A stretch of 64,000 nucleotides of DNA. Source: Georgenia sp. EYE_87. Its GTDB lineage: Bacteria; Actinomycetota; Actinomycetes; Actinomycetales; Actinomycetaceae. The notes below the pieces were generated by a model. It had not been told where the DNA came from and did no database searches. It worked only from the letters and a program-made list of their open reading frames with translations. The translations under genes and the position numbers were made by a program. How positions within the stretch are numbered: the stretch's first letter is position 1; every line of letters starts with the position of its first letter. The stretch spans positions 134,594 through 198,593 of the forward strand of contig NZ_JAHXNL010000004.1 of the NCBI RefSeq assembly GCF_023148685.1. The letters run 5' to 3'. Positions 19,152-22,032 of this stretch are shown here, piece after piece.

Positions 19152-19736
19152 TCAGATGTAGACCGCCGGGTCGGCCCAGGGGTCGGCGACCACCGCCGGC
19201 GCCGGGCGCGGCCGTGCCGGCACGCCGACGGCCACCGCGCCGGGCGGCACGTCCTTGACGACCACGGCGTTCGCGCCGACCTTCGCGTCCGAGCCGATGT
19301 GCACCGGCCCGAGCACCTTCGCCCCGGCGCCGATCGTGACGCGGTCCCCGACGGTCGGGTGCCGCTTGCCCCGGCTCATGGACGTCCCGCCGAGCGTGGT
19401 TCCGTGGAACATCACGACGTCCTCGCCGACCTCGGCCGTCTCGCCGATCACCACGCCCATGCCGTGGTCGATGAAGAGCCGCCGGCCGAGGACCGCGGCC
19501 GGGTGGATCTCGATGCCCGTGGCGGCCCGCGCGGCCTGGGAGATCAGCCGCGCGGGCAGCCGGAGCATCGGGTTCGCGTGCCACACGCGGTGCGCCAGCC
19601 GGTGCGCCCACAGCGCGTGCACGCCGGGGTAGGCCAGCGCGACCTCAACCAGGGTGCGCGCCGCCGGGTCGCGGCGGCGCGCAGCCTGGAGGTCCTCCAG
19701 CAGCAGCTGGCGGAACGGCACGCGGGAGTCGTGCAC
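19152..19736 (-). CDS. cysE: Serine O-acetyltransferase
   Basis: Makes O-acetylserine from serine and acetyl-CoA, the first step of cysteine synthesis. The 194-residue protein has an N-terminal helical region and the left-handed beta-helix hexapeptide repeats ([43 protein letters not shown]-like pattern), with the catalytic His in IDHGMG. The GTG start lies two bases after the cysK stop, so it is coupled to cysK and shares its cysteine-rich leader. It is a short form, usual in Gram-positive bacteria. Confidence 0.92.
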
Positions 19737-19738
19737 GG

Positions 19739-20674
19739 TCAGTCGACCAGGCCCTCGAAGAGGATCGTCGAGAGGTAGCGCTCCCCGAAGGACGGGATGA
19801 TCACGACGATGGTCTTGCCGTCGAACTCGGGCCGCTGCGCGACCTGCACGGCCGCGGCGAGGGCGGCGCCGGAGGACAGGCCGACGAGCAGGCCCTCCTC
19901 GGTGGCGGCGCGGCGCGCCCACCGCACGGAGGTCTCGGCGTCGATGTCGATGACCTCGTCGTAGACCTCGGTGTCGAGGATCTCGGGGACGAAGTTCGCG
20001 CCGATGCCCTGGATCTTGTGGGGGCCGGGCTGGCCGCCGTTGAGGATCGGGGACTCCGCGGGCTCGACGGCGAACATCTTCACCTCCGGCCGGCGCTCCT
20101 TCAGCACCTGCCCGACGCCGGTGATGGTGCCGCCCGTGCCGATGCCGGCGACGACCGCGTCGACCTGACCGTCGGTGTCGTTCCAGATCTCCTCCGCCGT
20201 CGTCCTGCGGTGGATCTCGGGGTTGGCCTCGTTGGCGAACTGACGTGCCAGCACGGCCCCCGGACGCTCGGCGGCGATCTCCTCGGCCTTCTCGACGGCG
20301 CCCCGCATGCCGTCCGCGGGCTCGGTCAGGACCAGCTCGGCGCCGAAGGCGCGCAGCAGCGCGCGGCGCTCCTTGCTCATCGAGGACGGCATGGTGAGCA
20401 CGACCTTGTAACCGCGCGCCGCGCCGACCATCGCGAGGGCGATGCCGGTGTTGCCCGAGGTGGCCTCGACGATCGTGCCGCCCGCGGCCAGCTGCCCCGA
20501 GCGCTCGGCGGCGTCGACGATGGAGACGCCGATGCGGTCCTTGACGGAGCTCGCGGGGTTGTAGAACTCGAGCTTGGCGAGCACGGTGGCGCCCGCGCCG
20601 TCGGTGATCTTGTTCAGGCGCACGAGCGGGGTGCGCCCGATGAGCTCGGTGACGTCCTGGTAGATGGTGGCCAT
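19739..20674 (-). CDS. cysK: Cysteine synthase A
   Basis: PLP enzyme that turns O-acetylserine and sulfide into cysteine. The 311-residue product has the cofactor lysine Lys45 in NPASSVKDR, the substrate loop TSGNTG at 72-77 and the phosphate-binding GTGGT. The ATG at 20674 has AGGAGA at 20690-20685, eight bases upstream. That ribosome site can pair with TCTCC at 20704-20700 in a hairpin. Together with the cysteine-codon leader at 20850-20794 this suggests cysteine-controlled translation of cysK-cysE. Confidence 0.95.
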
Positions 20675-20684
20675 GGGTGTCTTC

Positions 20685-20704
20685 TCTCCTTGGGTGATGG
20701 GAGA
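20685..20704 (-). promoter_or_regulatory. Hairpin masking the cysK ribosome-binding site
   Basis: On the minus strand TCTCC (20704-20700) can pair with GGAGA (20689-20685), the Shine-Dalgarno of cysK, across a 10-base loop. This is the expected blocking element of a translation attenuator. The stem is only 5 bp, so a larger fold upstream may matter. Confidence 0.45.
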
Positions 20705-20793
20705 CGTGCAGGGGTCGGTGGCCCGGCGCGGGTGCCGGCGGGGTGGTGAGCGCCTGGCATGCGGTCGTGGCCGCACGCTTTCAGCCGGGCGCT

Positions 20794-20850
20794 CTAGCGA
20801 CAGGGAGGGCAGCACGGACAGCACGGGTGGACGGGGAGCGTCGAGCTCAC
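20794..20850 (-). CDS. Cysteine-rich leader peptide upstream of cysK-cysE
   Basis: An 18-codon reading frame on the cysK strand starts at GTG 20850 and stops at TAG 20794, giving [18 protein letters not shown] with five cysteines (residues 10, 11, 13, 14, 17). A ribosome site (GAGAGGA) lies eight bases before the GTG. It ends 119 bp before the cysK start. Short polycysteine leaders upstream of sulfur genes are known in mycobacteria, where ribosome stalling at low cysteine opens the downstream gene. Here the target would be cysteine biosynthesis itself. Confidence 0.7.
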
Positions 20851-20961
20851 GGCGTCGTCCTCTCTGTGCGGTCGCGGCGATCTTGAAGCCTCAATCACAC
20901 TATCGCGTGGGCAGCGTCACACGCACCCGGGCGAGGGGTCCGTCTCAGCGGGCGGTCGCCG

Positions 20962-22032
20962 TCACGCCGTTCGGCCCCGAGGCTGCTCGCCCCCGTCCGT
21001 CCGCCCCCGGTCCGCGGACCGCTCGCCCGCCGTCGCACGGGCGCGCTCGGCGAAGGTGTTGAGCAGCGCGGCACCGGTCGCGGCGTCGTCGACCGTGACC
21101 ACGAACCGCCGGCCGCCGGAGCGCTCGACGGCGATCGACTCACCGCCGCGGACCACGACGCCGACCGTGCCGTTCACGGCCGTGCGCAGGCCCCAGCCCC
21201 CGAACTCCCGCGAGGGGGAGACCCGACGGGTCGAGGCCTCGACGACCTCGTGCGCGGGCACGTGCTGACGCGGCCAGCCCAGCGCGCCGCGCGCGGTCAG
21301 TCCGCTCGCGTCCACGCGCACCTGCCACACCAGCATGGTGAGCAGGAGCAGGAGCGTGCCGAGCATGACCAGGGCCACGAGCCAGCTCGCCGCGACGACC
21401 GCGACCCAGGCGGAGAGCCCGAGGTACAGGGCCAGTGCGAGGCCGCCCCACCGCACGAGCACCGCATTCGGCCCGGCCGTGCGGATCCACACCGCCCGCT
21501 CCGTCCCCGCGAGCGGGGTGCGTGCGGCCGACGCAGGGACCGGGGCGGTGGCGGGCAGGTCCGGGTCGGGTCCGGCCAGCGCCCCCGCGGCGACGCCGAC
21601 GAGCACGGCGGCCACCACGGTGAGCGTGAGGCCGAGGTCGGGTGCCTCGGCGGCGGTCGCGTCGGCGAGGTCGACCTGCGTGGCAACCATGGTGACCAGC
21701 AGACCGCCGAAGAAGACGGCCGTCCCCGACGCCAGCCCCAGCACCGTGCGCCGGGTGAGCGCCGTGCGGCCGACCCTCAGCGAGAGGACCGCGAGCACGA
21801 CCAGGCTGATCCCGCCCGACACGCCGGTCACCGTGACCAGGTCGCCCGCCGAGCCGACGCGGTCCACGACCCCGCCGACGCCCCAGTGCAGGGCCACCCG
21901 TTCGGGCAGACGCGGCAGCCAGGAGGCCACCAGCGCCCAGGCGGCGGCGGTGACGGCCAGCGGGACCGCCACGCCCAGCAGCCAGGCGCGCGTGCGGTGG
22001 GGGAGCGGCGGGCGGGGGGCGTCGGCGGTCAT
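20962..22032 (-). CDS. DUF1648-type membrane protein
   Basis: Membrane protein of 356 residues with six or seven hydrophobic helices. The N-terminal region (SWLPRLPERVALHWGVGGVVDRVGS) matches the DUF1648 pattern found beside GntR/YtrA regulators; the C-terminal third is a soluble domain. It starts at the ATG at 22032, which overlaps the stop of the GntR gene (ATGA). Pairing with a YtrA-type regulator suggests a cell-envelope stress or antibiotic response, but its activity is unknown. Confidence 0.8.
   Translation of the reverse strand: MTADAPRPPLPHRTRAWLLGVAVPLAVTAAAWALVASWLPRLPERVALHWGVGGVVDRVGSAGDLVTVTGVSGGISLVVLAVLSLRVGRTALTRRTVLGLASGTAVFFGGLLVTMVATQVDLADATAAEAPDLGLTLTVVAAVLVGVAAGALAGPDPDLPATAPVPASAARTPLAGTERAVWIRTAGPNAVLVRWGGLALALYLGLSAWVAVVAASWLVALVMLGTLLLLLTMLVWQVRVDASGLTARGALGWPRQHVPAHEVVEASTRRVSPSREFGGWGLRTAVNGTVGVVVRGGESIAVERSGGRRFVVTVDDAATGAALLNTFAERARATAGERSADRGRTDGGEQPRGRTA

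Follow-up and report, generated by a model that had tools for sequence, protein, structure and literature searches.

How the cysK-cysE operon, which encodes cysteine synthase and serine O-acetyltransferase, could respond to the supply of cysteine is the question raised by the DNA upstream of cysK in Georgenia sp. EYE_87. We present here an analysis of that region in a stretch of 64,000 nucleotides (nt) of contig NZ_JAHXNL010000004.1 (RefSeq assembly GCF_023148685.1, positions 134,594 to 198,593), called the window below; positions are numbered within it, and all features described lie on its minus strand. The answer that we consider probable is a cysteine-sensing attenuator placed before cysK-cysE, in which a ribosome stalled on the last Cys codon of a short upstream open reading frame (uORF) would oppose a conserved hairpin, with an output probably at the level of transcription.

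The cysteine-codon reading frame

A first-pass annotation of this DNA had described an 18-codon frame, led by a Shine-Dalgarno (SD) sequence and ending 119 bp before cysK, and had read it as a cysteine-codon leader peptide. Coordinates and reading are right, and conservation strongly supports the leader peptide. The relevant features are as follows.

20794..20850, minus strand: leader uORF with a GTG start, 18 codons, and five Cys codons (read from the sequence; kept in 9/9 genus genomes)
20858..20864, minus strand: SD of the uORF, GAGAGGA (read from the sequence; an SD passing the pattern is present in 9/9 genus members)
20800..20802, minus strand: last Cys codon, TGT, followed by C, the proposed key sensor codon (TGT in 60/60 counted uORFs)

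The uORF runs from the GTG at 20850 to the TAG at 20796-20794, with the SD 7 nt before the GTG, and 119 nt separate its stop from the cysK ATG at 20674. Its Cys codons are arranged CC-CC-C; certain relatives have only two Cys, and locus L119 has one.

Relatives were searched with a strict definition of the uORF, which required an SD, a length of 8 to 40 amino acids, and at least 2 Cys within the last 10 codons. Within the family, 74 of 145 genomes with a cysK match were sampled, covering every one of the genus and between one and six from each other genus. The strict uORF was found in the cysK leader of 9/9 genus genomes (reverse-strand control, 0/9), at 43/65 other family cysK loci (control, 1/65), and at 10/79 named GTDB cysK loci (control, 0/79); the background rate was 38/2312 intervals of 450 nt (1.6%), or 34/2327 with a slightly narrower SD pattern. 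L114, which is not a cysK locus, was excluded from the narrower-SD count, and L108 was skipped in the conservation count. Doubtful positives are L166 and L167 among the 43 and L098 (an Arachnia) and L099 (a Chloroflexi metagenome-assembled genome [MAG]) among the 10; with L166 and L167 removed, 21 of the 35 sampled family genera have the strict uORF. The named positives include Cellulomonas chitinilytica, four Demequina species, Flaviflexus, and one Trueperella MAG, and L127, from the window's family, and Flaviflexus huanghaiensis (L052) have identical leaders. The strict uORF was not found at Terrabacter, Microbacterium, Brachybacterium, or Arthrobacter cysK loci. Inspection by eye revealed looser or leaderless-looking versions among the strict negatives, such as L138, L151, L152, L168, and L169.

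Loss of the Cys codons or of the frame in close relatives that keep cysK, for which the first-pass annotation had suggested looking, was not found in any of the nine genus genomes. The Cys codons are frame specific: at 52 loci with the hairpin described below, the eight codons preceding the last Cys include 103 Cys codons in frame, against 25 and 12 when the other frames are read. The Cys frame exceeds chance. No NCBIfam family was matched by the four leader peptides tried, that of the window as a 34-amino-acid form extended upstream. The conservation of the uORF in the genus and the family, set against the reverse-strand control, argues that a cysteine-sensing leader very likely precedes cysK-cysE.

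The most constant part of the frame is its end. Codons were counted in 60 uORFs, these being the 64 loci with a strict uORF minus four dropped beforehand (L098, L099, L166, and L167, with last Cys codons TGT, TGT, TGT, and TGC, respectively). TGT serves as the last Cys codon in 60/60, while the remaining Cys codons number 112 TGC to 41 TGT and vary widely in number between loci; 32 open reading frames (ORFs) of the window, chosen by length and codon composition and not by annotation, contain 99 TGC and 7 TGT, the genome being GC-rich and favoring TGC. The next base is C in 55/60, exactly one codon stands between the last Cys and the stop in 54/60, and the stop is TAG in 56/60 (the 32 window ORFs end in TGA 23 times, TAG 8 times, and TAA once). 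The first stop is lost in 5/60, and the frame then continues into the hairpin; in four of these five, the first position of the RNA model still falls on the last Cys codon, and the fifth, L155, is unmatched. Ten looser uORF candidates have a final TGT in 9/10 and a TAG stop in 10/10. The codon claim rests on this model-free count because the hairpin model itself favors TGT at its first position in the 52 hairpin matches. The terminal TGT may be a selected slow, wobble-read codon at which a stalled ribosome would abut the hairpin; a constraint acting on UGUC at the level of RNA would be compatible as well.

The hairpin behind the reading frame

In an alignment of the genus and one outgroup, the best-conserved stretch of the leader comprises the final codons of the uORF and the RNA directly behind them, with the conserved string TGTC-NN-TAG-AGCGCCCGGC...GTGCGG...CCGCATGCC.GGCGCTC. 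This RNA contains a hairpin with the following parts.

20748..20794, minus strand: conserved hairpin of P1, a 5′ bulge, and P2 (match to model R1, covariation, and genus consensus fold)
20794-20784 paired with 20758-20748, minus strand: P1 stem
20783-20777, minus strand: 5′ bulge
20776-20771 paired with 20764-20759, minus strand: P2 stem

The 5′ arm of P1 begins inside the uORF stop codon, five bases past the last Cys codon. Model R1 matches the window at 20802-20746 with 65.9 bits. The 24 model sequences, which were chosen because the hairpin was evident in them, pair in 94.0% of cells, with changes on both sides in 10/16 pairs. Among 28 distinct rows outside the model set, which were fitted to the model and hence lean toward it, 96.7% of cells pair, and both sides change in 13/16 pairs; these rows derive from 29 matches, one of which was a reverse-strand match of L118, and they include L127, of the same species as model member L052. 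The covariation score was matched by 0/500 shuffles in each set, and a weaker measure that admits further pair types was matched by 15/500 for the 24 sequences and 4/500 for the 28 rows. Controls slid along the alignment pair at 25 to 56%. P1 is nearly invariant within the genus, and the covariation stems from other genera.

A search of 89 loci and the window with the hairpin model matched 52 loci at 20 bits or more. Each genus genome (9/9) has one strong match, of 36.8 to 68.4 bits, at cysK; no second strong match was found in these genomes, the next best having an E value of 0.012. Under stricter filters, at the cost of weak matches, the hairpin was found in 22/248 genomes across the order (E up to 0.005) and in 2/396 across the phylum (E up to 0.001), the latter being the window's own genome and G519. 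A known RNA family, whether a T-box, a riboswitch, or an Rfam leader, was rejected, as no Rfam 15 covariance model matched the window at 20500-21100; one sub-threshold match to a CRISPR repeat lay outside the leader.

The consensus fold of the nine genus leaders contains P1/P2, together with a small hairpin where the uORF begins, and it leaves the SD of cysK unpaired. The small hairpin holds the uORF start codon at about 20850-20830 on the minus strand (columns 40-56 of alignment A4), pairing GTGAGC with a GCTCG-type partner; its covariation is weak, with a single pair changed on both sides among the nine leaders. We regard P1/P2 as the likely output element.

Proposed control and its alternatives

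In the attenuator that we propose, ribosomes would translate the 18-codon peptide with its terminal Cys codons. A shortage of Cys-tRNA would stall them at these codons, chiefly at the last UGU, close before the 5′ arm of P1/P2, and P1 could then not form; with ample cysteine, the ribosome would finish and depart, and the hairpin would form. The formed hairpin would be the OFF state because the operon is biosynthetic, and the OFF output would be hairpin-assisted and/or Rho-dependent termination within the C-rich spacer before cysK. The leader would very probably turn up cysK-cysE under cysteine shortage; we infer both stalling in vivo and this direction of control.

The leaders of 60 loci were folded in four states with assumed ribosome footprints; the p-values of these comparisons, and of the spacer comparisons below, are overstated since the species are related. 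Mean P1 pairing was 0.76 in free RNA, fell to 0.08 when the last Cys codon occupied the ribosomal A site, and was 0.73 for a ribosome at the first Cys. Counting only the P1 bases outside the modeled ribosome, the values were 0.77, 0.23, and 0.73, respectively (54 loci). A stall on the last Cys is thus predicted to melt P1. Because the last-Cys state lowers P1 pairing and the first-Cys state does not, the last Cys codon would be the place at which stalling touches the hairpin.

Several points weigh against this mechanism. Part of the loss of P1 is built in, since the ribosome mask forces certain P1 bases open, and the P1 value of 0 with a ribosome at the stop codon follows entirely from that mask. 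Because a ribosome pausing at the stop would likewise melt P1, the switch would depend on timing. A stall at the first Cys leaves P1 intact in the model. The strict uORF is absent from the sampled loci of 14 of the 35 family genera and from 69/79 named GTDB loci. The fraction of T in the first 8 nt past the hairpin is 0.163, against 0.169 in the next 32, and six T in those 8 nt occur at only 1/52 loci. Finally, modeled stalling does not hide the spacer, the openness of which rises slightly, from 0.486 to 0.507; masking of a Rho utilization (rut) site by the stalled ribosome was rejected because spacer accessibility is not reduced in the folding.

The same counts bear on the mode of termination. 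An intrinsic terminator was rejected as a general feature; U-tracts are rare behind the hairpin, which, judged from sequence, is therefore not in general a classical terminator. No terminator-like site was found in the window at 20600-21000. By eye, L148 and L159, which the hairpin model does not match, contain T5 runs. Behind the hairpin lies the following feature.

20691..20747, minus strand: untranslated spacer, C-rich and G-poor, conserved in neither sequence nor length (alignment and composition)

Spacers have C and G fractions of 0.40 and 0.22, with C exceeding G in 53/53; in cysK leaders without a strict uORF the fractions are 0.32 and 0.27, with C exceeding G in 71/107. Ranked by C-rich, G-poor composition within its own locus, the spacer lies at a median percentile of 0.965 and at or above the 90th percentile in 28/36 loci. 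This composition would suit Rho-dependent attenuation and would also suit an unstructured leader. We lean toward an output at transcription, and not by unmasking of the cysK SD, because of the C-rich spacer and the lack of both an SD-pairing helix and an SD response, as described next.

Translational attenuation, in which a stall on the Cys codons would prevent a structure that hides the cysK ribosome-binding site, is the strongest alternative and an unlikely one. It is published for the polycysteine short ORFs of M. smegmatis, as set out in PMC13236596 and PMC9031893. The first-pass annotation had proposed it for this locus, with the cysK SD masked by an upstream TCTCC.

20685..20704, minus strand: TCTCC/GGAGA pair around the cysK SD proposed by the first-pass annotation (2/9 genus members)

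The pair is present, with TCTCC at 20704-20700 and GGAGA at 20689-20685 on the minus strand, but among the nine genus members the CTCC/SD pairing occurs only in the window and L002; it is not conserved, and the conserved hairpin behind the uORF had been missed. The window SD is less open than in its own shuffles (0.27 versus 0.43 ± 0.13), in favor of masking; across 58 loci, however, sequestration of the cysK SD is on average no greater than with shuffled spacers (mean z, +0.14). The modeled fraction of cysK SD unpaired is 0.441 in free RNA, 0.462 at the last Cys, 0.434 at the stop, and 0.487 at the first Cys (60 loci). Only one of five comparisons shows a difference: a ribosome on the first Cys leaves the SD slightly more open than one at the stop, by +0.053 on average (higher at 20 of the 60 loci and lower at 6; p = 0.006, uncorrected); free RNA and the last-Cys stall do not differ (p = 0.44), and the window SD stays at 0.26 to 0.27 in all four states. 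With the SD unpaired in the genus consensus fold and the spacer conserved in neither sequence nor length, the alignment, the ribosome-mask folding, the shuffled spacers, and the consensus fold led us to reject SD masking as a conserved mechanism, and we consider it unlikely.

Less probable still is that the hairpin serves as a site for a protein, a ribonuclease, or a small molecule, with the stalled ribosome gating access and P2 and the bulge kept for that reason. P2 and the segment from the last Cys to the stop are conserved in sequence beyond the needs of pairing, as such a site would predict; the lack of an Rfam match speaks against it. It is very improbable that the frame arose by chance or simply encodes an unregulated small protein: the sequence of the peptide is free to vary in its N-terminal half across relatives, but conservation, the frame-specific Cys codons, the TGT bias, and the covarying hairpin contradict this reading.

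Setting of the leader and known systems

The genes and the promoter region that flank the leader comprise the following features.

20897..20902, minus strand: putative −10 box, TAGTGT (TANNNT box and TTGA..TCAA dyad in 9/9 genus members)
19739..20674, minus strand: cysK, cysteine synthase A (TIGR01139 match and ORF reading)
19152..19739, minus strand: cysE, serine O-acetyltransferase (TIGR01172 and NF041874; exact start uncertain)

The putative −10 box stands 46 nt upstream of the GTG; the arrangement of TANNNT and dyad is found in 9/9 genus members, lying further upstream in L003, and no sigma-70 consensus promoter was found at the putative −10 region. Transcription would start about 7 nt downstream of the box, giving the uORF a 5′ leader of roughly 40 nt. 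Directly after the box, at this presumed start, is the near-palindrome TTGAGGCTTCAA (20894-20883, minus strand); besides the nine genus members, TTGA..TCAA is present in L010, L123, L156, and L157. It could be an operator or a 5′-terminal RNA hairpin and hence a possible second layer of control.

CysK scores 456.8 bits against TIGR01139 (NCBIfam cut-off, 350.95), and CysE scores 233.7 bits against TIGR01172 (cut-off, 210.65). Just upstream of the cysK promoter region (22388-20962, minus strand) are two genes: a short GntR-type regulator at 22388-22029 on the minus strand, under all NCBIfam cut-offs, the frame of which overlaps the start of a 356-amino-acid protein at 22032-20962 on the minus strand that has no NCBIfam match. 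Sulfite reductase (PF01077) was found in only 1/9 genus genomes, and the idea that its gene is likewise regulated in the genus was dropped; most members therefore probably lack sulfate reduction for cysteine and rely on sulfur in another form.

In 2020, Canestrari et al. reportedly described polycysteine attenuators in mycobacteria that consist of leaderless short ORFs. Mycobacterial polycysteine short ORFs, first noted in PMC4633059, are described as leaderless and are said to act by translational attenuation in that paper and in PMC13236596, PMC9031893, and PMC9094748. Like them, the window has a short, Cys-ended ORF upstream of a cysteine-metabolism operon. Unlike them, its uORF is led by an SD and, given the putative start site, would not be leaderless; a covarying hairpin lies behind it at a constant spacing, and folding does not support SD sequestration. 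In another family of the class, Cys-ended ORFs lie just upstream at 4/5 nirA-type loci, all with a final TGT; from these nirA leaders, we take the genomes of that family to be mycobacteria. One of three close cysK homologues in that family (L213-L215) likewise has such an ORF with a final TGT. The leaderless-looking polycysteine ORF at L215:1288-1365, MQQATSPRLAQTRRPAVDSCCRCCC, is about 130 nt before cysK, and a similar ORF at L214 lies farther away, some 1.4 kb upstream of cysK and separated from it by a long open frame. The L215-type leader makes it possible that cysK is among the mycobacterial loci, reportedly six, of Canestrari et al. The hairpin was not found at 19 mycobacterial-type loci, where the one match (L224; E value, 0.55) is at chance level. 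From this sequence comparison, the sensor, including the TGT, is common to the mycobacterial-type loci, and the RNA behind it is not shared.

The trp operon provides the familiar example of a transcription attenuator of an amino acid operon. Such an attenuator is also described for Mycobacterium tuberculosis ilvB1 in PMC13236596. As in these systems, the leader peptide here is rich in the amino acid that the operon produces, with an RNA hairpin behind it; unlike in them, the window leader has no intrinsic terminator (U-tracts being rare elsewhere), and the genus consensus fold, which shows one structure only, contains no competing antiterminator helix. Escherichia coli tnaC, which senses free tryptophan through the nascent peptide, combines an end-of-leader stall with a long untranslated spacer and no intrinsic terminator. 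The window leader shares the spacer, the lack of an intrinsic terminator, and, as proposed, a stall at the leader end; it differs in the proposed codon starvation and the conserved hairpin, and a role for Rho is only a candidate here. For M. tuberculosis, PMC12810186 documents uORF-bearing leaders with Rho-dependent termination and calls intrinsic terminators scarce. Among the matches listed in the open-licence literature, no cysK or related actinobacterial cysteine leader was found beyond the mycobacterial work.

This kind of cysteine sensor is known from mycobacteria; the hairpin and the near-invariant last Cys codon seem to set apart the version found here. Tentatively, and with some doubt, these leaders may form a class of hairpin-coupled cysteine attenuators in which the sensor would be the wobble-read UGU, set at a constant spacing from a covarying hairpin, the other Cys codons would be accessory, and the control would be transcriptional without an intrinsic terminator; the rule that UGU stands last may span actinobacterial cysteine leaders, with differing output platforms. 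The finding places cysteine-codon leaders outside mycobacteria and on the cysteine synthase gene itself, in SD-led and leaderless-looking forms within one family. It adds a sharp rule, that the last Cys codon is nearly always UGU at a fixed distance from the hairpin, and it would separate a shared sensor from the differing output platforms.
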